From a virus, in the IMG/VR virus record IMGVR_UViG_3300024346_000533, positions 1 through 23,267 of that record: a DNA stretch of 23,267 nucleotides; one strand, given 5' to 3'. The position numbers were made by a program, and so were the translations under genes. Of this stretch, positions 670 through 22,510 are shown piece after piece (positions within the stretch are counted from its first letter, which is position 1; each line of letters starts with the position of its first letter). Under the pieces are notes generated by a model. The model worked only from the letters and a program-made list of their open reading frames with translations. It was not told the origin of the DNA and did not search any database.

Positions 670-1176
670 TTACTTAGCGTTTAACACTTCAAGTTCACCC
701 ATCACTTCTAGGGTATCCATAGCAATCAAGAGGCTAACAGTCTCTTCTTTAAAAGTCTTCCAGAACTTAGGATCATGCTCTTCGATGCTCAAGCTGTTGT
801 GAAACATGTCGCAAGTCTTGAGGATTCGAATGATCTCAGGAGCCTCACGCAAACGCATCTCACACAACTCTTTACGAAACTTACGATTCCCAACATAGTC
901 AGGAGTCTTAGTCATGAACCATACACCCTTCGCAATCTCAGGTCCAAAGAACCCTTCGATGCTCTCCATAGTAGCAACAGTGTCTTCAACAGTGTCATGA
1001 AGAATGGCAACTTGTATAGCCATTTGAATCTCTTCTTCAGTGAAAGTACCTTTGCTATCCATGTACTCTTCAACAAGATCAGCGACAGCAACAGGGTGAG
1101 TGATATACTCTTCACCAGTGTACTTACGCACTTGACCTTCGTGCATCTTTGTAGCATATTCTAGGGCTTTAATCAT
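670..1176 (-). CDS. Small alarmone (ppGpp) hydrolase-like HD protein
   Basis: 168 aa matching the hydrolase half of RelA/SpoT enzymes (MESH1/SpoT-type HD domain), which remove the 3'-pyrophosphate of (p)ppGpp. Visible residues: YITHP with His27, ILHDTVEDT with His60-Asp61 and Glu64-Asp65, and LKTCDMFHN with Asp123. Together these are the expected metal and substrate ligands, so activity is plausible. There is no synthetase, TGS or ACT domain; the length fits stand-alone small alarmone hydrolases. The start is ATG at 1176 (GAGAG just upstream); an in-frame TTG five codons earlier is rejected. It is the first gene after early promoter P2, so it should be made at the start of infection, where lowering ppGpp could blunt a stringent response (inference). 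Confidence 0.85.
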   Translation of the reverse strand: MIKALEYATKMHEGQVRKYTGEEYITHPVAVADLVEEYMDSKGTFTEEEIQMAIQVAILHDTVEDTVATMESIEGFFGPEIAKGVWFMTKTPDYVGNRKFRKELCEMRLREAPEIIRILKTCDMFHNSLSIEEHDPKFWKTFKEETVSLLIAMDTLEVMGELEVLNAK

Positions 1177-1201
1177 TAGTCTCTCTCTCAATTACTTCTA
1201 T

Positions 1202-1690: not shown

Positions 1691-2455
1691 ATGTCATCAA
1701 TCACAGCCAAATCAGTTATGGAAAGATCACTTCTTTTCGCAAAATTATCAGCTATCGCATATCTCGCACCAGATGAAGCAAAACGAGGAGCAAGAGCCTT
1801 AGGCTTTACTACTACAGAGTTTTATGATAAATCAGGAGCGCAGGCTTACAGATTTCAAAACAAACACGATCTCGTAATCGCATGTAGAGGAACTCAGCCA
1901 ACTGAGTTTGGTGATATTAAGGCAGACCTCAAAGCCATGCCAGTTCTAGCTGAAACTATCTCACGTGTACATCGTGGATTTAAAACAGAAGTGGATGACA
2001 TTTGGCCTATGATATGTGAAGACATTGACCGAAAAGCTAACTTAGATCGTAAGCTGTGGTTCTGTGGACATTCGTTAGGTGCGGCTATGGCTACTATTAT
2101 GGCAAGCAGATGTAAGTTTGAAGAACGATTGAATGACCCAGTGATGCTGTTTACTTACGGCTCACCGAGAGTTGGTTGGAAAGGATATTGTAATAGCTTA
2201 GGCGTTGTACATCATAGATGGAAGAACAATAACGATATCGTAACAACAGTGCCTTTAAAGATAATGGGATACACTCATCATGGTATGGAACACTATATCA
2301 ATGCTTACGGTCAAGTCAGAAATCCAACTGGATGGCAAAGAGTAAAAGATAAGTTACGTGGCATATGGATGGGAATCAAGCAAGGTAAAGTTGATTCTTT
2401 CTCAGATCACAGCATCGATGAATACATCAAGCACATCACTGATCATCAAGAGTAG
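1691..2455 (+). CDS. Class 3 lipase-like alpha/beta hydrolase
   Basis: 254 aa of the lipase (class 3) family, serine esterases acting on acylglycerols or phospholipids. The nucleophile elbow is GHSLG (126-130, Ser128); Asp182 in NNND and His240 in SDHS complete a plausible triad. ACRGTQP (64-70), HRGF (94-97) and YGSPRVG (156-162) are the usual family blocks. No signal peptide or clear membrane segment is seen, so it acts in the cytosol, in the virion, or after lysis. AGGGG precedes the ATG. It is the only plus-strand gene and has its own late promoter, so it is probably expressed with virion and lysis genes; roles in membrane damage or lysis are inference. Its 3' end overlaps the convergent SET gene by 20 nt. 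Confidence 0.85.
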   Translation: MSSITAKSVMERSLLFAKLSAIAYLAPDEAKRGARALGFTTTEFYDKSGAQAYRFQNKHDLVIACRGTQPTEFGDIKADLKAMPVLAETISRVHRGFKTEVDDIWPMICEDIDRKANLDRKLWFCGHSLGAAMATIMASRCKFEERLNDPVMLFTYGSPRVGWKGYCNSLGVVHHRWKNNNDIVTTVPLKIMGYTHHGMEHYINAYGQVRNPTGWQRVKDKLRGIWMGIKQGKVDSFSDHSIDEYIKHITDHQE

Positions 2456-5275: not shown

Positions 5276-7264
5276 TTAGCCTTCACACGCTCGGCATTCA
5301 TCGCCTTCTTCTACATCTAATGGCTTATTTAAAAATTCCATCAATTCATTGTATCCACCAACATACTCACCTGAAATATAGATTTGCGGAACACTCTTGA
5401 CATCTTTACGTCCAGTTACTTCTGCGGCTGTCTTGCCGATCTCTTTGAGGTCTATCTTATCATAAGGAATACCTCGTAACTTTAACTCTTCCATTGCCAT
5501 AGAACAGAACGGACAATCTTTCTTAGAATACACGATAGTACGCATATCTCCTGCTAGTGCTACTCGCTCGACTTTCTCACTAACATTCTCTGCACGTTGT
5601 TTTGCTTCTGTACGCAGATAATACAGACCTTTTAGACCTTCTTTCCATGCACGTAAATGTACTTGATTGACATACGATTTAGGTGCGCCTGATGGGAAGA
5701 ATAGATTCACAGATTGACCTTGACAGATATATTTTTGTCTGTCTGCGGCATGCTGTACAACCCAGTTTTGATCTAGTTCATCGGCAGTCTTAAAGATTGC
5801 CTTTTCGCCTTCTGTCAGGAAGGGCAGGTGTTGAACTGAACCTTTTCTAGTAATAATAGAAGTCCAATTAGTGTCATTGTTTTCTCCTTTGAGTTCAAGC
5901 ACTTCTTCTAGATACTTGTTCTTCACTAAGAAAGAACCAGCACGTGTACGATGTGTGTATGCATTAGCTTTCAATGGCTCAATAGACGGAGACGTTGAAA
6001 GAATAACACCAGAACTAGCATTAGGTGCGATAGCAAGAAGATGTGAGTTTCTACGTCCACTGCCTACACCATCAAGATAGTCACCACGTTCTTCAGCAAG
6101 TTTCTCTGTCTCTTCTACTGCTTGACTCTTAATGTGATTGAATACTACATCGTTAATCTCTTTCGCTAGTTCAGACTCCCAAGCCACTTTGTGCTTCTGT
6201 AGAAGTGAGTGAAAGCCCATTGCACCAAGACCAATACTACGTTCTCTGGCAGCCGAGTATTTCGCACGTGTAATAGTGTCGGGTGCATTCTCAATAAAGT
6301 ATTCTAATACATTATCAAGCATACGAACCAAATCTTTTACAATAGACGTATCTTTCCAATCATCATAATACTCTAAGTTCAACGAAGATAGACAACACAC
6401 CGCAGTACGTTCAGCAGACGTTGGAAGATGAATCTCATTACACAAGTTAGATCCATTGATCTTCAGACCTAGATCCTTAAGAGGCTGAGGTAGATCATTG
6501 TTAGCAGTATCAATGAAGTTTAGATATGGCTCACCTGTACGAAAACGAATCTCCATGATACGTTCCCATAGCTTACGGGCATCAACACTTTCTTTAACTT
6601 TGCCATCTTTCGGGTCTTTCAGATCCCAAGTGCCGCCATTACTTACAGCTTCCATGAATGCATCTGATACATTGATTGCGTTATGTAAGTTAAGTGCCTT
6701 ACGTTGAACGTCACCTGTCGGAATTCTCATGTTCAAGAACTCGATAATATCTGGGTGAGATACGTCCATATATGCCGCATAAGAACCCTTACGAGTCTTA
6801 CCTTGACGATACGCAATCATATCAGCATCTACTGTATGTAAGAATGGCATAGGACCAGGTGCAATATCGCTTACTGTACGAACATCAGACCAATGACCAC
6901 CAACACCACCACCGTAGACTGACAACCATCGCAATTCAGCAGTATGATCAATTAGACCTTCTAGAGTGTCTGGTACATAAGTTAGAAAACAAGAGATCGG
7001 CATGCCTTTGCCTTGCTTAGATCCATTAGGAGCATTTGATAATACGGGTGACGCAAACATGAACCATTTGTTCGATACATAGTTGTACAATCGTTGTGCT
7101 AAATCTTCATCCATATCATCTTTGTATTTTGACCACGCAGTAGCGGCACGTTTGTATGCCTCTTGAGGTGATGATTCATACTCTGTTAAATAAAAATCCT
7201 TAAGCATACCTACAGCGTAGTCTGCTAAAAGATCATCTTTACTCTTGTCTATTCTTATAGTCAT
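5276..7264 (-). CDS. nrdA: Ribonucleotide reductase alpha subunit with inserted glutaredoxin domain
   Basis: 662 aa. The catalytic core shows the redox Cys92 in ISCFLTY, active-site Asn273, Cys275 and Glu277 in NLCNE, the second redox Cys290/291, and the radical-relay pair YY in KGLYYLRTEA. The N-terminal ATP-cone is missing, so dATP overall inhibition is probably lost. From residue ~574 a complete glutaredoxin domain follows: CPFC (584-587), SVPQ cis-Pro, GGY. The normal NrdA CxxC swinging tail (CRAC, 657-660) comes after it, so the reductant is built into the protein just before the tail. The start is ATG 7264, 13 nt after the thyA stop; an in-frame GTG at 7306 lies inside thyA and has no advantage. 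Confidence 0.93.
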   Translation of the reverse strand: MTIRIDKSKDDLLADYAVGMLKDFYLTEYESSPQEAYKRAATAWSKYKDDMDEDLAQRLYNYVSNKWFMFASPVLSNAPNGSKQGKGMPISCFLTYVPDTLEGLIDHTAELRWLSVYGGGVGGHWSDVRTVSDIAPGPMPFLHTVDADMIAYRQGKTRKGSYAAYMDVSHPDIIEFLNMRIPTGDVQRKALNLHNAINVSDAFMEAVSNGGTWDLKDPKDGKVKESVDARKLWERIMEIRFRTGEPYLNFIDTANNDLPQPLKDLGLKINGSNLCNEIHLPTSAERTAVCCLSSLNLEYYDDWKDTSIVKDLVRMLDNVLEYFIENAPDTITRAKYSAARERSIGLGAMGFHSLLQKHKVAWESELAKEINDVVFNHIKSQAVEETEKLAEERGDYLDGVGSGRRNSHLLAIAPNASSGVILSTSPSIEPLKANAYTHRTRAGSFLVKNKYLEEVLELKGENNDTNWTSIITRKGSVQHLPFLTEGEKAIFKTADELDQNWVVQHAADRQKYICQGQSVNLFFPSGAPKSYVNQVHLRAWKEGLKGLYYLRTEAKQRAENVSEKVERVALAGDMRTIVYSKKDCPFCSMAMEELKLRGIPYDKIDLKEIGKTAAEVTGRKDVKSVPQIYISGEYVGGYNELMEFLNKPLDVEEGDECRACEG

Positions 7265-7277
7265 CTTTGGTTCCGTT

Positions 7278-8156
7278 CTAAATGGCCATCTCTGCTTTGA
7301 TGGCACTTAATGGGTTATAATTATCTAGCTGGAAGTCAGAGACGTCCAAGCCCAGTACTTCTTCAAGAGAAGAAAAGTCTTTAATGATATTCAGTGTGGG
7401 TAACTCTTGCGGGGTTCGCTGTAGTTGTGTGTTCACTGCTTCATAGTGTGTAGTATATATATGTGCATCCCCAACCGTAAGTACGAAATCCTGTACTTCT
7501 AAGTTGGTTATTTTTGCTATAATATGAGTCAATAAAGAGTAGCTTGCAATGTTAAAGGGTACACCTAAAAACAAGTCTGCGCTTCTCTGATACATCTGAC
7601 AACTCAATTTTCCATTACTAACATAGAACTGTGCCAATGTGTGACACGGTGGCAAAGCCATCTTGTCGATCTGATTAGGATTCCATGCACTTAGAATCAA
7701 TCTACGACTGTCTGGGTTTGTCTTTATCTCATTGATAAGCCACTCAATCTGATCAGTACCTTTAAGATGTGGCGCACTATTGTAAATCTCACCGCCAAAG
7801 TTTCTCCACTGAAAACCATAGACTGGACCTAACATTCCGTCAGAGTAGCCAAGTTCTTTGCCTTGATTCTCTGCATTGTCAGTCCAGATAGTTCTCTTCT
7901 CAGTTAGTTCTGATCTATCTTTTCCATAAGTTATTTCTGCTAATCTACGCTCGTTCATAGAGCCTTCGAGAAACCATAGTAACTCACCGACAACTGACTT
8001 CCAAGCTAACTTCTTAGTTGTAACAGCCGGAAAGCCTTTTGTCAAGTCAAATCGCATCTGATAGCCAAAGATACTTTTAGTACCTGTACCAGTGCGATCA
8101 GTTTTTTCCTCGCCTGAGGACAATACGTCTGCTAACGCTTTCAAATAAATGTTCAT
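7278..8156 (-). CDS. thyA: Thymidylate synthase (ThyA type)
   Basis: 292 aa folate-dependent thymidylate synthase making dTMP from dUMP with methylene-THF. Arg21 (RTGTGTKS) binds phosphate, LPPCHT holds the nucleophile Cys171, YQRSADLFLGVPFNIASY is the conserved substrate block, and HIYTTHYE is near the C-terminus. The length is normal and there is no sign of an intron, unlike T4 td. It overlaps the DHFR gene by ATGA, a coupling that makes sense because the reaction produces DHF. Confidence 0.96.
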   Translation of the reverse strand: MNIYLKALADVLSSGEEKTDRTGTGTKSIFGYQMRFDLTKGFPAVTTKKLAWKSVVGELLWFLEGSMNERRLAEITYGKDRSELTEKRTIWTDNAENQGKELGYSDGMLGPVYGFQWRNFGGEIYNSAPHLKGTDQIEWLINEIKTNPDSRRLILSAWNPNQIDKMALPPCHTLAQFYVSNGKLSCQMYQRSADLFLGVPFNIASYSLLTHIIAKITNLEVQDFVLTVGDAHIYTTHYEAVNTQLQRTPQELPTLNIIKDFSSLEEVLGLDVSDFQLDNYNPLSAIKAEMAI

Positions 8157-11545: not shown

Positions 11546-11553
11546 TATTTATT
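11546..11553 (-). promoter_or_regulatory. Variant late promoter (AATAAATA)
   Basis: Minus strand AATAAATA, one base from the T4 late element, 29 nt before the MALWG gene. The same variant is at 14002-14009 at a similar distance (30 nt) from its gene. Confidence 0.5.
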
Positions 11554-13189
11554 GAACGTAACAGTTCAGTTCGTATTTTGCGCCCATGTTATACACTTGA
11601 ATTTGTAAAAACTTGCGAGTGGGCTTGCCATTCTTAGTTAATTTGATAGAGTATCTGTTAGTTTTGTCTTTACTTGGCTTTTTAGGACCAGTAGCGACTT
11701 TATCAGACCAATCATCTTCATCAACGTCATAACCTTGTTTCTTAGCGACTGCAATTGCTTCTTGTACTGCACCGCTAAAAGTATTGTGATGTAGCTTGTA
11801 GCTAGGTGCTTCTTGAAGGTTCTGTTCAGCCATTAGTTCATTAGTAACTTCTTCACCTAACATCTTAGACGCTTGCTTAATACCTACAGTTTGAAACTTT
11901 CCAGATTCATCTGTGATACGAAACGAGAATTTACCGTTATCGAAGTTAATATCTACATCAAACTTTTTGTTGCCTTTGCCACGTATACCAGTTGCAGAGA
12001 TAGAGCCTTTAGCTTTACCTTTCTGAATTTGTGGTGGTCTAGCTTCTTGAACAACCTCTTCATTATAACCAGGCTTAATAGCTAAGAGACCCATCTTAGA
12101 TTTAGGCACTTTTAGCATCTTGGCAGCCTTCATCTTGGCTCCGTATAGATCATTTGCTTCACTCTTTTTGATCTCTACTTTTTTACCGTTATAAATTGCT
12201 ACCCATCCAGCCATCTTAGATTCATCAAGATTTTCTGGGCTATGTGGCTTACCACACGATTCACAGATTTTCTTTCCGCACTCACATCCGCAATCACAAT
12301 AATCTTCTTCAGCTTCATTGAGTTGCTTTTTTAGTTTCTCAATTTTTTTCTGAATAGCAAACTTTTTCATTTTGACAGAAGAAGTATTGCCAAAGAAACT
12401 CTTAAGATACTTCTCTGCTTGATCAATTTGCTTTTGAATCTTAGCCTTGTCTACTCCCTCAGTTAGAGGCGTAGTATCAATTTCCACTGATTCGCTAAAT
12501 CGCTTATTGGATCTAAGTGCTTTATCTAGCTTATCCATAGACGCTCTTGGACCTGAAACAATAAAGTCAGTGCCCTTTGGAGTTCCTTTGATAATCATCT
12601 TAAATTGGCCGACAGATTTAATAAGCTTTTCAAAGTCATCTACGTCTTTATGTGGAACAGCTTTGAATGTTACTTGATCATGACCAGGAGTACGCCTTGC
12701 TTCATCCAGTTCAACTTCTTCACGCATAGTTTTCAGAGCATGTACCATATCTTTGTATGATTTACTCATTGCAGTTTGAAGTTTCTCTTTAGTATCTGGC
12801 TTACGAAAAGAAGCAAACTTCTTAAGTGCAAGTTCAATTACTTTTGGAGGTAACTTAGCTTTCTTACCGTCAGCAAATTGAATAGGAAGATTACCTCTCA
12901 CGTCAGCCGCTTTACGCAACTGCATGATAATGTTCATCTTAGCGCCAGCTTTATCTTTGTCAGTTGCGACCATATCAAAGTCAGCAGGATCAAACTTCTC
13001 ATTCACATCTTCGTTTTGACGCTTAAGTACCGCCCTAACTTGTGGATGATCAGACAATCCTTTTTTCATCTTCTCAATAGCTTTGACTGCACCAGTCATG
13101 TTGCCACCAGCATAGCGTTTATCAGACGCAATACCAATCGCTTGCTTGACATGCATAGGACTAAATCTTTCGTTTAGTTCGTTAGTCAT
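11549..13189 (-). CDS. Multi-module capsid-associated polyprotein (546 aa), predicted prohead-protease substrate
   Basis: 546 aa made of distinct modules separated by [L/V]-x-E junctions: LDE163|A, LTE244|G, LNE292|A, LDE323|S, VQE382|A and LQE460|A. The T4 prohead protease gp21 cuts after [LI]-x-E, so the protein may be cut into about seven pieces. Modules: 1-163 helical and basic with GGNMTGAVKAIEKMKKGL; 164-244 alpha/beta; 245-292 coiled coil; 293-323 Cys cluster CDCGCECG...CESCGKPH; 324-382 starting MAGWVAIYNGKKVEI; 383-460 beta-rich; 461-546 starting SYKLHHNTFSGA. Several modules recur in other marine myoviruses (recollection). GGAGG precedes the ATG, and the upstream gene ends 1 nt before it. 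Confidence 0.8.
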   Translation of the reverse strand: MTNELNERFSPMHVKQAIGIASDKRYAGGNMTGAVKAIEKMKKGLSDHPQVRAVLKRQNEDVNEKFDPADFDMVATDKDKAGAKMNIIMQLRKAADVRGNLPIQFADGKKAKLPPKVIELALKKFASFRKPDTKEKLQTAMSKSYKDMVHALKTMREEVELDEARRTPGHDQVTFKAVPHKDVDDFEKLIKSVGQFKMIIKGTPKGTDFIVSGPRASMDKLDKALRSNKRFSESVEIDTTPLTEGVDKAKIQKQIDQAEKYLKSFFGNTSSVKMKKFAIQKKIEKLKKQLNEAEEDYCDCGCECGKKICESCGKPHSPENLDESKMAGWVAIYNGKKVEIKKSEANDLYGAKMKAAKMLKVPKSKMGLLAIKPGYNEEVVQEARPPQIQKGKAKGSISATGIRGKGNKKFDVDINFDNGKFSFRITDESGKFQTVGIKQASKMLGEEVTNELMAEQNLQEAPSYKLHHNTFSGAVQEAIAVAKKQGYDVDEDDWSDKVATGPKKPSKDKTNRYSIKLTKNGKPTRKFLQIQVYNMGAKYELNCYVQ

Positions 13190-13972
13190 TTAGTCCTCCA
13201 AAGCTTTAGAAATTGCTTTTCTGCGTCTGTGTAAATACTCATCTGACTCATCTTCATCACCGTCATTGTCGATGTCTTTGTCTTTACGATCATCAAACTT
13301 CTTTTTAACAGCTTTAGGATTTACTGGATCAATCTCTTCTTTCTTAGCTTTAGGCTTGTATGAAGATGATACTGTGCTACAGCTACTTTCGTATACTTCA
13401 CTCAGACTCTTTTCAACGTCTGCGATAGTCTTACATGACGCATCACAGCCAAGACTCTTCTTAGCATAAGCAATGAGTTTAGCATCTGGACCAGTCATTT
13501 CAACATCGTTACCACCCATAGAGGATGAAGCGATTTTCTTTACTTTGATACCAGCTGGTGCCTTACCAGTGAATGCTTTTACCTTAATCGTAGCTTCATA
13601 CATTACATCTTCAACTTGTACTTTACCACCGTCTTGAACGAGTTCAATTTCTTCGTGTTGAGATTTTGAAGCGGCTTTTACAGCAGTTTCTACAGACTTG
13701 GCTGCCTTATCTTTCGATGAGATCATGCCAATTTCTGGAGTCACATCAGCAACTTTAGGCATCTTAGTGTCGCCGTCACCTGGTTTAGTTTTATCTACGC
13801 CACGTGATGCTACTGCTTCTGATACTTCTTCAGGCTGTGCTTCTACTTCTACTTCGGCTTCTGCAACAGGCTCTGCCTCAGGCATCTTGTATCCCTGAGA
13901 AGCGACTTTAGCAGTGAAAGCATCTACCATACCTGCTGGCAATGGCCGAATATTTTCTGGTTTCTTAAACAT
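13190..13972 (-). CDS. Acidic/basic mosaic capsid-associated protein with Ca-binding-like motif
   Basis: 260 aa, mostly low-complexity. Residues 29-55 are Glu/Ala/Val-rich, the middle (about 105-195) holds one ordered alpha/beta module with two cysteines, and the C-terminus has DIDNDGDEDESD (233-244), an EF-hand/dockerin-like loop (Asp at 1, 3, 5, Gly 6, Asp 12), followed by basic YLHRRRKAISKA. Junction-like VSE52|A and LSE192|V resemble prohead-protease sites. It abuts the 546-aa gene; a good GGAG and an AATAAATA element lie upstream. It could be a scaffold or internal head protein (inference). Confidence 0.7.
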   Translation of the reverse strand: MFKKPENIRPLPAGMVDAFTAKVASQGYKMPEAEPVAEAEVEVEAQPEEVSEAVASRGVDKTKPGDGDTKMPKVADVTPEIGMISSKDKAAKSVETAVKAASKSQHEEIELVQDGGKVQVEDVMYEATIKVKAFTGKAPAGIKVKKIASSSMGGNDVEMTGPDAKLIAYAKKSLGCDASCKTIADVEKSLSEVYESSCSTVSSSYKPKAKKEEIDPVNPKAVKKKFDDRKDKDIDNDGDEDESDEYLHRRRKAISKALED

Positions 13973-14001: not shown

Positions 14002-14009
14002 TATTTATT
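14002..14009 (-). promoter_or_regulatory. Variant late promoter (AATAAATA)
   Basis: Minus strand AATAAATA overlapping the stop of the preceding gene, 30 nt before the ATG of the 260-aa gene. It is the same variant and spacing as at 11546-11553. Confidence 0.5.
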
Positions 14010-14367
14010 AGTTATCTACTTTGGCACTGGCTCGCCATTGATAGCAAGACCAGTACTTAGCTTTCCACTTTGGACCTGGATTGTCACAACCGTGTCTAGC
14101 CCTAAAACTTTTTCTTCTTGCAGGATCATCTCGTTTGATTTCCATGTTCGGATCACCAAATTGAACTTTCACCACGTTACCTTTATCATTTTTAGCGTAT
14201 ACGCCAAACTTTCTCTTAGAACCACTGGGTAGTCGAAACGGGTCGTTTAGCGTAACCTTTCTTCCTTGATACTCAGATTCTTCTAAAACTAAATCTGCAT
14301 AGATGTCGCACTCTTCACATACGGCATCAACAGCTTCTTCGTTATATCTTTTAAAGCTTTTCATCAT
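14008..14367 (-). CDS. Conserved capsid-cargo candidate (119 aa)
   Basis: 119 aa. The start was moved to the ATGATG at 14367 because it overlaps the stop of the previous gene (ATGATGA); the extra four codons of the longer frame lack support. The N-terminus, MMKSFKRYNEEA, resembles a capsid targeting sequence, and LVLEESE around residue 31 is a second protease-like site. The rest is one compact conserved module: GRKVTLNDPFRLPSG, KFGVY, FGDPNMEIKRDDPARR and FRARHGCD with two later Cys-bearing segments. I recall this module in many marine phages, also attached to other proteins, without known function. The basic, Cys- and Trp-rich end suggests nucleic-acid or metal contact. Confidence 0.75.
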   Translation of the reverse strand: MMKSFKRYNEEAVDAVCEECDIYADLVLEESEYQGRKVTLNDPFRLPSGSKRKFGVYAKNDKGNVVKVQFGDPNMEIKRDDPARRKSFRARHGCDNPGPKWKAKYWSCYQWRASAKVDN

Positions 14368-14582
14368 TGTGCGTCCCAATATGTCTTGTCAAGTTCACCA
14401 GTTGCAGGTGGGTTACTAGTTTTTCTACACTTGATATATGTCTGTCTAGCGTTACCACCAGGTAAAGTAAATGTTCGAATACCATTAGCGATAGTGCCAG
14501 GAGTATCTGAATAAGTGTCAGATGCAGTTGCGGCATTATCGTATTCCCACTCAGTGTTATTAGTAACTGTAACCCAAGCCAT
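14364..14582 (-). CDS. Small conserved structural-region protein (72 aa)
   Basis: 72 aa, N-terminus MAWVTVTNNTEWEYDN, then Thr/Gly/Asn-rich beta-type sequence (GIRTFTLPGG, QTYIKCRK), ending shortly after KTYWDAQ. No membrane segment and no targeting-like N-terminus. I recall short MAW-type proteins like this in T4-like marine phages next to head genes; the function is unknown, though a beta-strand surface or decoration role would fit. Start and stop overlap both neighbours (TAATG and ATGA). Confidence 0.7.
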   Translation of the reverse strand: MAWVTVTNNTEWEYDNAATASDTYSDTPGTIANGIRTFTLPGGNARQTYIKCRKTSNPPATGELDKTYWDAQ

Positions 14583-14818
14583 TACTCTTCTCCGTCTTTG
14601 TTCATCATATATCGATGAGCAGAGTTTAGATAGTCAGCGGCTTTGGTGATCTTGTTCTGAACCCACTCTGGCAGATTGTCTTCATCGTCAAACATGCCTA
14701 TCATGTGTTCTGCATCTGCAAGTACACCTCTAAGTTGAGTCTTAGCCATGCCACCCTCATTATCGTACTCGCCTGAGTCTTTTGCTTCTGTTCTAAAATC
14801 GCTAAACTTTTTAATCAT
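14582..14818 (-). CDS. Capsid-cargo candidate with targeting-like N-terminus (78 aa)
   Basis: 78 aa. The N-terminus, MIKKFSDFRTE|A, closely resembles the T4 capsid targeting sequence (MKTYQEFIAE|A); predicted cleavage after Glu11 would leave 67 residues. The remainder is helical and acidic, with MAKTQLRGVLADAEHMIGM and NLPEWVQNKITKAADYL, a segment I recall as common in marine myovirus proteins. The stop overlaps the next start (TAATG). The function is unknown; internal head protein is the favoured guess. Confidence 0.75.
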   Translation of the reverse strand: MIKKFSDFRTEAKDSGEYDNEGGMAKTQLRGVLADAEHMIGMFDDEDNLPEWVQNKITKAADYLNSAHRYMMNKDGEE

Positions 14819-15678: not shown

Positions 15679-16137
15679 TTATTTTTTCTCCAAAACATTT
15701 TCATTTCCTTCGTGTATCTTTTTTGTGAAAGTCTTTGGGTAGCTGTACACGTGTTTTAATAATTCATGAACTTTCACATCTGCTTGCATGATATCTATAT
15801 TTCCACCTACATTTCGAGCGGCTAACCATCGATGATGTCCGTCAATGATATAGTTATCTTTACTCACAATCAGAGGTTTTGCTTGACCAAGAGTCTTGAT
15901 CTTAGCGATTGCCCCTACAATCTTATCTTTGTTAAATTCTTTCTGAATAGGCTTTAAACTCTTAGCAGGAACTTTAGTCTTTTTTACAGCAACGTTATTC
16001 TTCTTCAGATGCTTGATAAGTCCATCATAATCCTTCGATCTTACTTGAGGCATCTTGTCTCTTGTAAAACCGAGAGTATCTGTGGACTTAGGTTCATAGA
16101 CCTTAAGTTCTGTCACAAAGTTCCTAAACTTCTTCAT
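15679..16137 (-). CDS. ParB-like domain protein with targeting-like N-terminus
   Basis: 152 aa. PLIVSKDNYIIDGHHRWLAA (88-107) is the core of a ParB/sulfiredoxin-type fold; DGHHR is the nucleotide/phosphate-binding box. The family includes ParB CTPases and ParB-like nucleases; the HTH and dimer domains of true ParB are missing. The N-terminus, MKKFRNFVTE|L, resembles the T4 capsid targeting sequence. An additional block, FTRDKMPQVRSKDYDGLIKH, precedes the core. The ATG overlaps the stop of the 929-aa gene (ATGA). A DNA-linked function inside the capsid or after injection is inference. Confidence 0.8.
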   Translation of the reverse strand: MKKFRNFVTELKVYEPKSTDTLGFTRDKMPQVRSKDYDGLIKHLKKNNVAVKKTKVPAKSLKPIQKEFNKDKIVGAIAKIKTLGQAKPLIVSKDNYIIDGHHRWLAARNVGGNIDIMQADVKVHELLKHVYSYPKTFTKKIHEGNENVLEKK

Positions 16138-18923
16138 ACCTTGATCACTTTACTAGATGTACCAAAGTTCTTCTTACGCATGATAGTCTTGTTGACTACT
16201 TCGTATTCGTCTTTTTCGCTATCATAGTTGATTACGATAGGTAAGTTCAAATCTGCTTGAATGTCCTTAAGTACTGCTTCGATGTCAGGATTTTGACGAA
16301 TGTTCTTTGCTTTGTTCTTTGCAATCTTTTTGAATACTCGCTGAAGTTCTGCAATAGTGATAGCAGGCTTATTGCGTTCATCATTCATACGATCAGCAAA
16401 GTGGCGAGTGAATTCTACGTCAATACCAAACTTGTCAAGTAATCTATCTGCAAACCTTTCTAAGTCATTCAACTGCTTCTGAGTAACTTCTTCTTCGAAG
16501 TGTGCTTCAAATAGATCATCTACTGACTCAGTGACAGTCTCGCCAGGAGTATCTTTCTTGTAACGCTTAGTGACTTTTTCAGTACCTCTATCACCAGCAC
16601 CGCCTTGTTCGAATACATAATCACTAGGCACCATATCTGCTAATGTTCTGCCGTCAACGCCTGCGTAACTTTTTGCGATTTGTGCGGCATAGTATCCTAC
16701 GCCATGTCTAATCTTACCCTTCGATTCTTTCTTTTTTCTATCGAGTAGAGTTATCAAAGTTTTCGTTGCTTGTTGATAGTTCTTTCTGTTAGTAATAGAA
16801 CCTAGCTTAGACTTGATAAGGTCTTGTGTGCTTCTTTTCTCAGAGATAAACTCTTCGAATGCTTCGTTTACATCTTCCTTTAATGCGGCCCTTACTTGCT
16901 GTACCTTTGTTTCCATATCTCGTATTTCGCCTTCGATATCTTTACGTTGACGGAAACGGCTCTTTTTAATTAAGTCGGCTAATTGAGTTTCGAAGGAAGC
17001 AAGCTTACGCTTTAGATCACGTTCGGGTTTTCCTTTATACGGATTTTTAAGTGCTTCGGTAACGTTTTCAGTCTCTTCTTTACGCACTTTAGCGGCTAAG
17101 TCTGCGTCTGCTTTGCCCCAAGTACCAGATGATTTAGTGATGAAAGAGTTTACACGTGCAAAGCCCCATTGCTGTGGAGTCGTACCAGGTCTGTGACCAG
17201 TTTTCCAAGCGGCGATGCCTCTGTTATAAACTTGACGTAGAATACCTAATGGCATGCCAGACTTTTCAGCTTTCTTCTTAAGACCTTCATTACCTTTTGC
17301 TTCATCTAGTTCTACTTGATCAAATACATCATTAGTAGTCTCTTCGATGAATGCAATCAGGTCTTTTTCTGATTGAAATTCTTCTTTGTTTACTTGCGTG
17401 ATCTTCTTACGCAACTCTCTAGTAAGCAGTCCGTCCATTTCACGCTCATGCTCTTTAGATAAGTTTGATCTTTCATCTTTATGCTGTTTCTTTAGTCTCT
17501 TCTCAGCATCGGTATTAATGCTTATCTCATCTAGTTCAACTTCTTCTTTTCTTGAACGAAATGCACGAAAGCGGCGATCTAATTTGATTTGACCTTCTTT
17601 GTTAAACATCTGATGATATCTCTTAGTGTGCTTAGATGTCTTAGTCTCTGAGTCTGCATCACCAGGTGCAGGTTTATATGCAGAGTTGTCATCATCATCT
17701 TTTTTACCGTGCTTCTTGAAATGTGCGTCACGCTTATCTTTAGTTGACTTGGCTAAACCCTTGTAATATACTGCAGGCTGTGTACCCTTCTTATCTTTGA
17801 TATCTGGGTCTTGTCCTGTAGTGGGCTCTTCAAAAAGTTGTGCGAACTCTTCATTGAATAGAAATGATTCAAACTCTTCGTTAGCACTTTTCTTGCCTGA
17901 TAGTTTAGCTAGGTCAGCTTTACGTACTTGCGGAAGCAATTTCTTAGCGATTCTATCAATAGCAGATTTCTTCTTAGCGACACGTTTATCGATAAGCATC
18001 TTCTCTGATGGAGACAAAGTTGCGTACTTCTCGCCTTTCTTGCCTGCTACTTTTTTACGAATGATTTTGATTGCGGCTTTTCTTGCACGTGACTTTAGTT
18101 TGTCCATAGTAGCGGCTTTCTTAGCCATACGTCTACGACCTTGAGCAATCTTCGATTTAAACTTACGCATGGTAATTGCTCTCATGCGTCTTTGCTGAAT
18201 AGTCAATGCTTCATCTAGTTCTAGCATTTCTGCAATCTTCATTCCGCCACGTACCATGTCATATACATCTTGTGCATCTGATTGGAGTCTGCGAGGTAGA
18301 CCTGTTTTGAATTTTTTGAAATCGCCTTGTGAGGCTGCAACTCTCATTTTGGACGCTGACATGCCGTCAACTCCTTCAGAATCTGGGTCACGATCACCAG
18401 CAGATACGATAGAGATATTGTCGAATGTATAGTCTTTGCCGTTGTATTTGTTTAGAAGATCATCAAACTGTTTAATGCGATCTTGTCCAACTACCAAAAT
18501 AACTCTGGAGAACTTCTTCTGTAGTTCTTGCATGATTTGAATGATAGTGCGGGCATTTGACTTAACAATGAGTTTATTACCAAATGCTTTCTTTGCAAGC
18601 ATGATCTTGTCATCGTAATCTAACGGATTCTTCTTAGCGTCTTGGCTATGAGATATGTAAATGAGAGGTGTTGCACTTTCTTGTCTAGCAACAGATTTGA
18701 TTTTGTTGACCAGCTTTTCGTGACCAACAGTGATTGGATTCATTCTACCCCAACCTAAAACGACTGCTTTATTAGGAGCCTCTTCAAGTTTAGGATTGAT
18801 CTCAATCGCATTCTTTACTAGAAGTTCATCTTTGACCTTCTTAGTAGTTTTTTTCGTAGCCTTCTTTGGAGTTGGCTCTTCACCAGAATTTGCTTCTGGC
18901 TCTTCCATAGATTTGTCTTCCAT
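16134..18923 (-). CDS. Giant modular polyprotein: nucleotidyltransferase + DUF5824 + other capsid modules
   Basis: 929 aa. Residues 53-210 are a cytidylyltransferase-like (NMNAT/PPAT-type) domain: LGWGRMNPITVGHEKL with TVGH (65-68), VGQDRIKQF, and SASKMR (189-194). Candidate prohead-protease junctions: LEE48|A, LDE238|A, LFE365|E, LDE466|I, LDE541|A, VTE623|A, VNE687|A, ISE695|K and LFE806|A. Pieces: 1-48 Lys/Glu leader; 49-238 NTase; 239-365 very basic helix-rich; 366-466 with Lys-rich and acidic tracts; 467-541 coiled coil; 542-623 DUF5824-type (MPLGILRQVYNRGIAAW); 624-687 coiled coil; 688-806; 807-929 with FTRHFADRMNDER. GAGGA precedes the ATG; late promoter at 18980-18987. Confidence 0.85.
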   Translation of the reverse strand: MEDKSMEEPEANSGEEPTPKKATKKTTKKVKDELLVKNAIEINPKLEEAPNKAVVLGWGRMNPITVGHEKLVNKIKSVARQESATPLIYISHSQDAKKNPLDYDDKIMLAKKAFGNKLIVKSNARTIIQIMQELQKKFSRVILVVGQDRIKQFDDLLNKYNGKDYTFDNISIVSAGDRDPDSEGVDGMSASKMRVAASQGDFKKFKTGLPRRLQSDAQDVYDMVRGGMKIAEMLELDEALTIQQRRMRAITMRKFKSKIAQGRRRMAKKAATMDKLKSRARKAAIKIIRKKVAGKKGEKYATLSPSEKMLIDKRVAKKKSAIDRIAKKLLPQVRKADLAKLSGKKSANEEFESFLFNEEFAQLFEEPTTGQDPDIKDKKGTQPAVYYKGLAKSTKDKRDAHFKKHGKKDDDDNSAYKPAPGDADSETKTSKHTKRYHQMFNKEGQIKLDRRFRAFRSRKEEVELDEISINTDAEKRLKKQHKDERSNLSKEHEREMDGLLTRELRKKITQVNKEEFQSEKDLIAFIEETTNDVFDQVELDEAKGNEGLKKKAEKSGMPLGILRQVYNRGIAAWKTGHRPGTTPQQWGFARVNSFITKSSGTWGKADADLAAKVRKEETENVTEALKNPYKGKPERDLKRKLASFETQLADLIKKSRFRQRKDIEGEIRDMETKVQQVRAALKEDVNEAFEEFISEKRSTQDLIKSKLGSITNRKNYQQATKTLITLLDRKKKESKGKIRHGVGYYAAQIAKSYAGVDGRTLADMVPSDYVFEQGGAGDRGTEKVTKRYKKDTPGETVTESVDDLFEAHFEEEVTQKQLNDLERFADRLLDKFGIDVEFTRHFADRMNDERNKPAITIAELQRVFKKIAKNKAKNIRQNPDIEAVLKDIQADLNLPIVINYDSEKDEYEVVNKTIMRKKNFGTSSKVIKV

Positions 18924-18979: not shown

Positions 18980-18987
18980 TATTTATA
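18980..18987 (-). promoter_or_regulatory. T4-type late promoter for the cargo operon
   Basis: Perfect TATAAATA on the minus strand, 57 nt before the 929-aa gene, immediately after the stop of the SAP-like gene. A 6-bp hairpin (ACAGTA/TACTGT, 18992-19009) across that stop may end the upstream transcript. Confidence 0.8.
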
Positions 18988-18989
18988 AA

Positions 18990-19460
18990 TTACAGTAGTT
19001 CCTTACTGTCTTCCCATGCCTTTTGCACACTAGATAAATTTTTTCTAGCAACCTCTACTTCGGTGTGTGCTTTTAGTTCTAATACTTCAGCATTGATACG
19101 CTTATCTCTTAGTATTTGATATTTTTCTTCTGCTTGACGTACCATTTCCGATTGGTTATGAACTCCACGTCTTGCGTCTTTTTCTGCTTGAATTGCCTGT
19201 ATTGGGTCTACAAAAATCTCTTCTGCAATTGGCGCAACAAAGGCATCTACTGGCATTAAAGGATGCTCAATGTCTGCTTGTCCCCATTCTTCTTCAAGTT
19301 CTGCGTCTACATAGATAGGATCTAAGTTTTCTTCTGAACTGGATAAGTGGTCACTAAGCCGTTCAATTAAGACGGATTTGGTAAGTCTTCTATCCAGTTC
19401 AATGCCAACTGTACGTCCATAATCTTCTAACTCACGCTTTGTCATATCAACGAAATTCAT
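18990..19460 (-). CDS. SAP/HeH-like DNA-binding motif plus coiled coil (156 aa)
   Basis: 156 aa. Residues 6-39 (MTKRELEDYGRTVGIELDRR and following LTKSVLIERLSDHL) have the helix-extension-helix pattern of SAP/HeH-type domains, small nucleic-acid binders common in phage structural and terminase-associated proteins. Residues 45-95 are acidic and Pro-containing; 95-150 form a charged coiled coil. The stop abuts the late promoter for the 929-aa gene; the start is 2 nt after the stop of the small membrane protein, with GAGG upstream. It could tether DNA or a partner to the head (inference). Confidence 0.7.
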   Translation of the reverse strand: MNFVDMTKRELEDYGRTVGIELDRRLTKSVLIERLSDHLSSSEENLDPIYVDAELEEEWGQADIEHPLMPVDAFVAPIAEEIFVDPIQAIQAEKDARRGVHNQSEMVRQAEEKYQILRDKRINAEVLELKAHTEVEVARKNLSSVQKAWEDSKELL

Positions 19461-20475: not shown

Positions 20476-21705
20476 TTACTTCTGCCAGCCCTTAATGTAG
20501 TCTGGAGAAAAGTTAGCATTACTAAACTGTAGTCTGTCTACTAGTTTGACTGCATTTTTACCCATGCGATCAATAGCAACAAAGCCTTCTTGCTCAGTCA
20601 CTTTGTATCCGTCTTTAGTTTTGAGGAATGTTCCAACTGTTTTTGCTTTGTCGAGTTTTCTGATAATCATCAACTTAGCATCTACAATTAGATTGTATAG
20701 TTCAAACAGTCCTACGATCTGAGATTTATCTGTATTAGAGAAGTAAGACATGATCTCTTTACGCTTCTCTTCTTGACTAGCTTTGCCCTTCTCAGATTTC
20801 CTCTTATCGATTTCTTTCTGGTAGTACTCGTAGATGTATTCCATTAGACCAGAGACGAACTTAGAAGGACTATCAATCTTCTGACCTGCACGAACTTGAA
20901 CGTTAACGTATGTCTTCACTCTTACAAGTAAATCTTCGTTCTCTGTAATGCCATCAAAAGTTGCTTTGTTAATTTTGTTGAACTGCTTGCCTGCCGCTGA
21001 TAGAAGAAGCGTTACTGCATCTGTCTCTGTCTTGGTCATCGTAGCTTGACCAGTAACATCTTTGTATACTGCGTCTACTGACCAGACCGATCTTGAGCCT
21101 TTAAGATTGCTTGCAATCTTCTCTCCAAAAGACGCTGACATTGATTCAAAAGATTTTCCTCTGTAGTTAGTGTGCCAAACCACACCGATCTCGGATCTGA
21201 GGATTTCAGAAGCAAGCCTGCTTTTTTCTGGTATAGCGTAAACAATCGTATTAGGATGGAAAGTAATATACGGTTCACCGTTAATCTGTACTTTCTTAAT
21301 ATCTTTCTTCGCATAGAGGAAATCACCTTGTATCACTCCTTTTATATTCATAGCTGGCAAGTATCTCAGTGCCAAATTTAATTTAGTATTCAAATCACCT
21401 TTTGTATCAGCATCAACATCCGCTTTAGTCTTATAGACCTTAGGGTTCTTGTTGAAGATACCTTTCTTCGCAACAAAGAACTTACCATCAGAAGGATCAA
21501 TACCCGCAAACACTGCTGGTGCTCCATCCCATTTGACAGTCACGTTGACTTGGGATTTTGAATTACCAGCTAACATATCACGCAAAGAGCGTAGATAGTT
21601 GATCGAGTCTCTAGCACCGTCAACGCCTGCATTTAGCAAGTTGTCTTCGAGGTGCTCCATATGTGTGTTCTTGTCTTCAGTCAAAAATGACGATAGGCGT
21701 TTCAT
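20476..21705 (-). CDS. DUF6267-type, ligase-like nucleotidyltransferase candidate with capsid-targeting-like N-terminus
   Basis: 409 aa. The start at ATG 21705 has GGAG 6 nt upstream; the longer frame begins with TTG inside that site. The N-terminus, MKRLSSFLTE|D, resembles the T4 capsid targeting sequence. Then VTVKWDGAPAVFAG (Lys58-x-Asp-Gly61) looks like motif I of RNA/DNA ligases and capping enzymes, FFVAKKGIFNK (76-86) like the following K-x-G block, GVIQGDFLY (123-131) like motif III, and GVVWHTNY (174-181) like motif IV. I recognise the family as one widespread in marine myoviruses (DUF6267). Motif V is not clear. Ligase, other nucleotidyl transfer, or an inactive binding fold are all possible. 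Confidence 0.75.
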   Translation of the reverse strand: MKRLSSFLTEDKNTHMEHLEDNLLNAGVDGARDSINYLRSLRDMLAGNSKSQVNVTVKWDGAPAVFAGIDPSDGKFFVAKKGIFNKNPKVYKTKADVDADTKGDLNTKLNLALRYLPAMNIKGVIQGDFLYAKKDIKKVQINGEPYITFHPNTIVYAIPEKSRLASEILRSEIGVVWHTNYRGKSFESMSASFGEKIASNLKGSRSVWSVDAVYKDVTGQATMTKTETDAVTLLLSAAGKQFNKINKATFDGITENEDLLVRVKTYVNVQVRAGQKIDSPSKFVSGLMEYIYEYYQKEIDKRKSEKGKASQEEKRKEIMSYFSNTDKSQIVGLFELYNLIVDAKLMIIRKLDKAKTVGTFLKTKDGYKVTEQEGFVAIDRMGKNAVKLVDRLQFSNANFSPDYIKGWQK

Positions 21706-21706
21706 G

Positions 21707-22510
21707 TTATACTCCAAACAATTTCTTTACGTCTTCGGGATTATCGAGGCTATACGTAGACTTGATATTAGTCTTCAGTCTGCCTTGACAGCGATATCCA
21801 GCACCGACGACACGATAGTCTTCGCCTTCAAATTTTCTTGCTTTACTTCCAGATGGTCCTAATCTAAATTCGATATTAACAGATCCTTTGTATTCTGGAA
21901 CATCTAGTTTTAAGGGATTGCTTCCTAGATAGAAAAGACCTGCTTTACCAATCTGAATGTAATATACGTTCTTTCGGTTATATGCTTTAGCGATTGTTTT
22001 CGCTGAGTCAAAAGATTGTACCGCATTCATCTTAGTTAAGTAGCCAGCTTTCTGTGCCGCTGACCATGCGTCTTTAGTGACTGAACCGAAAGGTATCGTA
22101 TATGGTGTTTTTTTGTGGAATGCTACAGGCTCTTGCTTACGAATAAAGTTAACCCAATCTTTTAGTGCTTTGTCTTGTTTCTTTGCCGCTTCTATGAAAA
22201 ATGGAATAGCGTCATCGTCTACCGCATCGGGTTTGACTAAGGTGTGGGTCTTATTCTGCGTGTCTATTCTAATAGACGTACCGCCCATCTGTGCATTCTT
22301 GTCTAGTTTAATTTCGATATTGAATTCTTTACCGTTGTATAATGCTTCAATATCACCTGCGCCTTGATTACTGTATCCTGCGCCTGGTTTGCTACCCACA
22401 TCTAAGCCAATCACTCCAGCAGACTTCATTGCATCGAAAACTTTCTTTTCGTATGCTAGTCCCTTTGCACCGACTGATTCGGTAATAAAACTTTTAAATC
22501 TGACTGTCAT
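21707..22510 (-). CDS. PD-(D/E)XK nuclease-like protein with capsid-targeting-like N-terminus
   Basis: 267 aa. Residues 1-11 (MTVRFKSFITE|S) fit a capsid targeting sequence. After it, GLAYEKKVFDAM (Glu21 in helix 1), GAGDIEALYNG (Asp53) and FNIEIKLD (Glu66-x-Lys68) give the order E...D...E-x-K of the PD-(D/E)XK nuclease core. The C-terminal half is a separate alpha/beta region with FYLGSNPLKLDVPEYKG. It is coupled to the preceding gene by ATGA and ends 1 nt before the ligase-like start. A packaged nuclease could act on host DNA after injection or on DNA in the head; substrate and activity are unknown. Confidence 0.7.
   Translation of the reverse strand: MTVRFKSFITESVGAKGLAYEKKVFDAMKSAGVIGLDVGSKPGAGYSNQGAGDIEALYNGKEFNIEIKLDKNAQMGGTSIRIDTQNKTHTLVKPDAVDDDAIPFFIEAAKKQDKALKDWVNFIRKQEPVAFHKKTPYTIPFGSVTKDAWSAAQKAGYLTKMNAVQSFDSAKTIAKAYNRKNVYYIQIGKAGLFYLGSNPLKLDVPEYKGSVNIEFRLGPSGSKARKFEGEDYRVVGAGYRCQGRLKTNIKSTYSLDNPEDVKKLFGV

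Follow-up and report, generated by a model that had tools for sequence, protein, structure and literature searches.

The locus described here raises the question whether a single large phage protein can act as a polyprotein that is matured inside the capsid into many cargo pieces. It lies in a window of 23,267 nt (the whole stretch of viral DNA analysed, positions 1 to 23,267 of IMG/VR virus record IMGVR_UViG_3300024346_000533), in which an earlier reading from sequence alone (the sequence-only reading) had noticed a giant 929-aa ORF with about nine prohead-protease-like junctions: LEE48, LDE238, LFE365, LDE466, LDE541, VTE623, VNE687, ISE695 and LFE806. The ORF and all nine motifs were confirmed at these residues, on the minus strand (stop codon 16134-16136, ATG 18921-18923; product of 106 kDa, pI 10.1). 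Since full-length copies with 99-100% identity are present in four independent IMG/VR contigs (L001-L004), the ORF is not an assembly artefact. A comparison set of 79 related loci was used, and the phage carrying the ORF is likely to be a marine T4-type virus of bacteria. PADLOC gave no match for the protein. In our view the 929-aa protein is likely (probability about 0.8) to be a head-cargo polyprotein that the prohead protease cleaves in trans, with its cleavage, packaging and injection and the functions of its pieces being inferred.

The protein is made up of a leader followed by a series of modules and segments (Table 1). Module 49-238 is recognised by Pfam (CTP_transf_like, 2e-6), phrog_3041 (4e-91) and a Foldseek structure match (2e-4), whereas a search of PDB by sequence gave no match; a role of this piece in NAD metabolism, inferred from the NadD/CoaD-type fold, is possible. 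The all-helical module 239-365 also occurs as a stand-alone protein with a targeting-like N-terminus in C48C1 and Melnitz, and segment 624-695 is replaced by other modules in relatives. For the C-terminal module no fold match was found; it stands alone in L055 (MLRFRGYISE/EVTQKQ), L043 and L051. The predicted pieces would measure 4-21 kDa, with a net positive charge in 7 of 10, one of them at +26.

Table 1. Features of the window; a slash marks a predicted cut position
Feature	Position	Strand	Support or remark
Putative cargo polyprotein ORF, 929 aa	16134..18923	-	79 related loci
Leader, residues 1-48, disordered, end INPKLEE48/A	18780..18923	-	pLDDT<50 over 1-50; LxE in 27/28 rows
Module 49-238, adenylyl/cytidylyltransferase (NadD/CoaD-type fold), end ELDE238/A	18210..18779	-	Pfam, phrog, Foldseek
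Module 239-365, all-helical, pI 11.5, net +26, end QLFE365/E	17829..18209	-	AlphaFold2 model, charge calculation
Module 366-466 (YKGLxKSTKxKRDAHFKK / RYHQMF), end EEVELDE466/I	17526..17828	-	homologue alignment, module searches
Module 467-541, acidic coiled-coil segment, end VELDE541/A	17301..17525	-	alignment, AlphaFold2 model
Module 542-623, DUF5824, end VTE623/A	17055..17300	-	Pfam PF19141, 1.2e-16
Exchangeable segment 624-695, end FEEFISE695/K (internal targeting-like core), VNE687 within	16839..17054	-	relatives
Module 696-772 (STQDLI...), end VFE772/Q	16608..16838	-	module searches, AlphaFold2 model
Segment 773-811 (GGAGDRGTEKVTKRYKKDTPG), end LFE806/A or HFEE811/E	16491..16607	-	module-start test
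C-terminal module 812-929	16137..16490	-	stand-alone copies in relatives
T4-type late promoter TATAAATA	18980..18987	-	57 bp upstream of 929-aa ORF
Second polyprotein-like ORF, 546 aa; LDE163, LTE244, LDE323, VQE382, LQE460	11549..13189	-	unit losses in relatives
ORF with MMKSFKRYNEE/A and internal LVLEE/SEYQG	14008..14379	-	module fused in L051, L059, L079
ORF, targeting-like N-terminus MIKKFSDFRTE/A	14582..14818	-	
ParB-like ORF, targeting-like N-terminus MKKFRNFVTE/L	15679..16137	-	
DUF6267 ORF with MKRLSSFLTE/D	20476..21717	-	Pfam 7e-112
ORF, targeting-like N-terminus MTVRFKSFITE/S	21707..22510	-	

The bare [LI]xE motif is no more frequent in the 929-aa protein than chance predicts (11 observed against 9.8 expected by composition shuffle, P=0.38), and the bare LxE count was dropped as evidence, being at chance level here and raised generally in phage proteins. 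The longer string ELDE[AI], in contrast, is found three times, as had been claimed, where 0.004 are expected by the same shuffle, and internal capsid-targeting-like cores, ending at 366, 695 and 811, number 3 against 0.1 expected. The motifs were also said to fall between modules, and this held. In an AlphaFold2 model (47 sequences, mean pLDDT 70.5) the stretches 1-50, 231-240, 365-372, 447-472, 535-539, 618-632, 689-700, 773-780 and 792-810, together with three short ones, are of low confidence; all nine sites lie in, or at most 2 residues from, segments with pLDDT<50, a zone that comprises 23% of the protein including the margin. When the nine-site set was shifted circularly, only the true register out of 929 placed every site at a linker. 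For a gappy alignment, low pLDDT indicates linkers only indirectly and does not prove them.

Conservation of the sites was assessed in 36 aligned homologues. At junction 541, all 35 rows have Glu at P1 and Leu or Ile at P3; P4 is variable, as is P2, where Asp, Thr, Glu, Ser and Val are seen (entropy 0.00 at P1, 0.66 at P3 and 2.08 at P2). Glu and Leu at P1 and P3 of junction 48 are retained in all but one of 28 rows, the residues upstream being conserved as well, and in several relatives that have no leader the initiating Met falls precisely on this border. Glu is kept in 31/36 homologues at junction 238 and in 28/35 at junction 365. Junctions 466, 623, 687 and 695 are retained mainly in close relatives, partly because other modules are inserted there; LDE466 and VNE687 are weakly conserved sites. 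The sequence-only reading missed VFE772, for which a site lies in the start window in 16/18 distinct module contexts, nearly all directly at the module, and FEE811, which matches the boundary of the C-terminal module more closely than LFE806. These two have better support as sites, and both the number and the selection of the nine junctions need revision. The requirement of gp21-type cut sites for a hydrophobic residue, any residue and Glu is met at the junctions.

Among the 79 relatives the architecture varies, with modules permuted, lost, inserted or standing alone, as illustrated by NT-BAS-STQ-GGA-YKG-D5824-PAQ-CTM in L060 and D5824-YKG-EYQG in L059; stand-alone modules are found in L043, L050, L051, L052, L055, L059 and L079, and also in C48C1 and Melnitz. 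Among cultured relatives, Pelagibacter phage HTVC008M, Methylophilales phage Melnitz and Sinorhizobium phage phiM12 have fused forms. Thirteen module families were searched against 596 non-redundant proteins from these loci, taking a 19-residue window at each module start. A hydrophobic-x-E site was present at 122 of 149 distinct module starts, where shuffling of the windows predicts 73 and never gave more than 88 in 500 rounds, with the reservation that homologues share ancestry and the counts are not independent events. This includes all 17 distinct starts of the DUF5824 module and 16/18 of segment 773-811, which also has the stand-alone forms MDKYIKE/VGGA and MIKFKKMVE/KSGA. A zeta-toxin-like P-loop kinase module (L055, L035, L036, L049, L052) is either inserted in the polyprotein or separate, and xxE/G always precedes it, fused or alone (6/6, including MKSFKEFNE/G). 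An earlier test on HSP boundaries showed a peak, but the control with the motif reversed rose too; the module-start and indel tests took its place. Whether junction motifs are kept while modules are shuffled, a check proposed together with the original claim, was thereby examined and passed for most junctions.

Clean indels in the 929-aa protein and in a second polyprotein-like ORF of 546 aa run from site to site: 10 of 26 are in phase, against 0.5 expected, although several have common breakpoints and about six separate borders are involved. The 546-aa ORF, with junction contexts EEVELDE/A, PLTE/G, NLDE/S, VVQE/A and NLQE/A, is the cleanest case, in that relatives 90-99% identical to it are without whole site-to-site units: L031 (99% identity) is without exactly VQE382 to LQE460, and L021 (96%) without LDE163 to LTE244 and LDE323 to VQE382. 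This second polyprotein, the late promoter and the capsid-targeting sequences had all escaped the sequence-only reading. A capsid-targeting-like N-terminus is present in 5 of 30 window ORFs (Table 1), where 0.6 are expected.

Other genes of the window were recorded alongside. The ORF at 13190-13972 (-) has a C-terminal EF-hand-like module, KKKFxDRKDKDIDNDGDxDxSDEYLHRRRKAISKA, which these phages have in many of their proteins, with a related stretch in the S-SCSM1 virion protein gp280. Further ORFs encode an HD_4 domain protein of the RelA/SpoT-type hydrolase family (670-1191 (-), 2.5e-11), a class 3 lipase (1691-2455 (+), Pfam Lipase_3 8e-18), which is the main plus-strand gene in an otherwise minus-strand window, a small 99-aa SET-domain phage protein (2436-2735 (-), Pfam SET 1.7e-8) and a ribonucleotide reductase large subunit with a C-terminally fused glutaredoxin (5276-7306 (-), Pfam 2e-12). 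The ORF directly upstream of the polyprotein gene (18990-19460 (-)) weakly matches phrog_8608, a prohead protease inhibitor family, over its N-terminal 36 residues only (E 4e-4).

A gp21 gene is not on the 23-kb window, which is a fragment. Of 15 longer contigs bearing a homologue of the 929-aa protein, 9 carry a Peptidase_S77 gene (gp21-type prohead protease; E 1e-35 to 1e-38). In those contigs the gp23 pre-sequence ends in SLLSE/A, SLLNE/A, SLME/A or SLLGE/A, and the gp22 scaffold starts in most with LDLDE/AK or LELDE/AK, one context being NLDLDE/AK; these cut positions are inferred by similarity to the established processing of T4 gp23 and gp22, not measured. The junctions of the 929-aa protein show the same LxE/A pattern as gp23 and gp22 of the same phages. 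T4 internal proteins are expressed late, and this property is matched by an exact TATAAATA no further than 100 bp upstream of the gene in 40 out of 46 homologues, compared to a background of 1.6% of 100-mers; the number of TATAAATA copies in the window alone was not significant, in contrast to its conservation among homologues.

How the protein would reach the prohead is less clear. In T4 IPIII, residues 4 and 7 govern targeting and residues 8 and 10 processing, Asp at 10 blocking the latter (PMC9026906). Stand-alone modules fit this numbering, as in MLRFRGYISE/E (L055), MKSFLQFLKE/A (S-SCSM1 NMNAT), MKKFSAFLSE/A (Syn9), and MLSFKQFVSE/V and MITFKKYLEE/K (C48C1), and internal targeting cores are found 39 times in module-bearing proteins against 5.0 expected, compared to 37 against 23 in other proteins. 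Several internal junctions of the 929-aa protein likewise still resemble capsid-targeting sequences. Its own N-terminus, MEDKSMEEPEANS, does not conform to a canonical capsid-targeting sequence, and in some fused relatives nothing precedes the nucleotidyltransferase, so targeting remains unexplained; the missing N-terminal sequence is the main gap in the cargo reading.

Virion data are available only for relatives of the nucleotidyltransferase module, all single- or few-module proteins. Mass spectrometry of purified virions detected the S-SCSM1 NMNAT (PMC9602691), and both adjoining genes are, like it, annotated as virion proteins; its neighbour gp280 contains VKNTIKINPKISE/E, close to LVKNAIEINPKLEE/A of the 929-aa protein. 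A cytidylyltransferase cluster is present in S-SM1 virions (PMC3037559) and a cytidylyltransferase in S-CREM2 virions (PMC10665884). The authors of these studies considered co-purification a possible source of the detection.

According to the cargo reading, the polyprotein would be expressed late, driven by a TATAAATA promoter of its own, and enter the prohead core, where the gp21-type protease, acting in trans, would cut it after Glu at the hydrophobic-x-E junctions. This would yield about 8-10 small, mostly basic pieces, among them a nucleotidyltransferase, the +26 DNA-binding-like helical piece and a DUF5824 piece; the proposed freeing of a nucleotidyltransferase, a basic DNA-condenser-like and a DUF5824 piece is thereby supported, with cleavage and packaging inferred. 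Similar in size to T4 internal proteins, the pieces may remain with the DNA and would be small enough for injection alongside it. The junctions would double as cassette borders, modules that elsewhere are separate genes with capsid-targeting sequences being strung together here.

Three other explanations were weighed. The protein might be a multidomain polyvalent protein that remains uncut and is packaged and injected intact, with sites that are little or never used. Packaged multidomain phage proteins are known, and the N4 virion RNA polymerase enters the virion without being processed (PMC5512222), but P1 and P3 are conserved with P2 free in otherwise variable linkers, the junctions match the gp23 and gp22 sites of the same phages and Pfam finds no embedded peptidase, which makes this reading unlikely. 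Even less probable is a scaffold or core protein that, like gp22, gp67 and gp68, is broken down at LxE sites and removed from the head. In its favour, LxE sites are numerous in gp22 of these phages and include an identical LDE/AK, and T4 core proteins are cut to short fragments (PMC5694885). Against it, the protein holds an adenylyltransferase fold, relatives hold zeta-toxin-like kinase modules, single modules exist as separate proteins, and mature cyanophage virions contain the nucleotidyltransferase.

The motifs could also be borders of recombination at the DNA level rather than protease sites, since an identical 15 bp, GAACTAGATGAAGCA (18207-18221 and 17298-17312), encodes ELDEA both at residues 235-239 and at residues 538-542. 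No such common DNA is found at the other junctions, P3 and P1 are fixed with P2 varying across homologues, and single-module N-termini as well as gp23 and gp22 bear the same residue pattern, so that we regard this as very unlikely too. Microhomology through the shared GAACTAGATGAAGCA may possibly aid module shuffling but leaves the residue pattern unexplained.

The cargo reading combines features of several known systems. With T4 internal proteins and Alt (PMC9026906, PMC5694885) it shares the hydrophobic-x-E site, a gp21-type protease and cargo around the DNA, and the stand-alone relatives resemble IPIII in having hydrophobic or aromatic residues 4 and 7, a hydrophobic residue 8 and Glu 10; Alt is even cut at both ends (ITE-6 and LTE-619). 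T4 cargo, however, is encoded as one protein per gene with terminal propeptides, whereas here many modules are fused with sites between them. Polyvalent proteins, likened to RNA-virus polyproteins by Iyer et al. 2017 (PMC5512222), also have several disparate domains in one polypeptide, as does the 929-aa protein; the prediction for them is that they are processed and pass into the host together with the DNA. Mostly they contain embedded zincin-like (MPTase) or assemblin-like peptidases, which are common though not universal; none is detected by Pfam here, and a trans-acting prohead protease is the candidate instead. The sections of Iyer et al. that bear on this hold no T4-type examples of the module set. 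Ejection proteins of phiKZ and SPN3US (PMC10052503) are likewise large head-cargo proteins, which their prohead proteases cleave at x-x-E sites, several per protein, but these multiple sites lie in discarded propeptides, whereas the sites of the 929-aa protein separate modules that are apparently kept. Virion NMNAT/cytidylyltransferases of cyanophages S-SCSM1, S-SM1 and S-CREM2 belong to the same nucleotidyltransferase family, and Syn9 gp184 and the S-SCSM1 NMNAT have targeting-like start sequences, but they are proteins of single or few modules; a link to targeting or processing is not drawn in the bearing sections of the source papers.

Modularity, the placement and conservation of the junctions, the late promoter, the relatives' protease and the matching capsid and scaffold sites are shown. 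Against the cargo reading stand the absence of direct cleavage or virion data for the 929-aa protein itself, the bare motif at chance level, the poor conservation of LDE466 and VNE687 and the position of gp21 outside the 23-kb fragment. Although gp21, capsid-targeting sequences and polyvalent proteins are known already, the open-licence literature searched yielded no description of fused cargo in which conserved prohead-protease sites between the modules act as cassette borders. Within that scope, this bears out the claim that such a polyprotein is undescribed.

A bolder reading, towards which we lean by a small margin, is that in marine T4-type phages the prohead protease processes polyproteins in general, each hydrophobic-x-E junction being a targeting remnant, a cut site and a recombination border at once, and a changing set of injected effectors being built from strung cassettes in few late genes. 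If true, T4 head maturation would extend from the trimming of single proteins to the freeing of a modular arsenal from a polyprotein, and a sequence rule, a capsid-targeting core plus a hydrophobic-x-E junction, would predict injected head cargo among the unknown genes of marine phages. It also suggests a route by which such phages may quickly exchange effectors.
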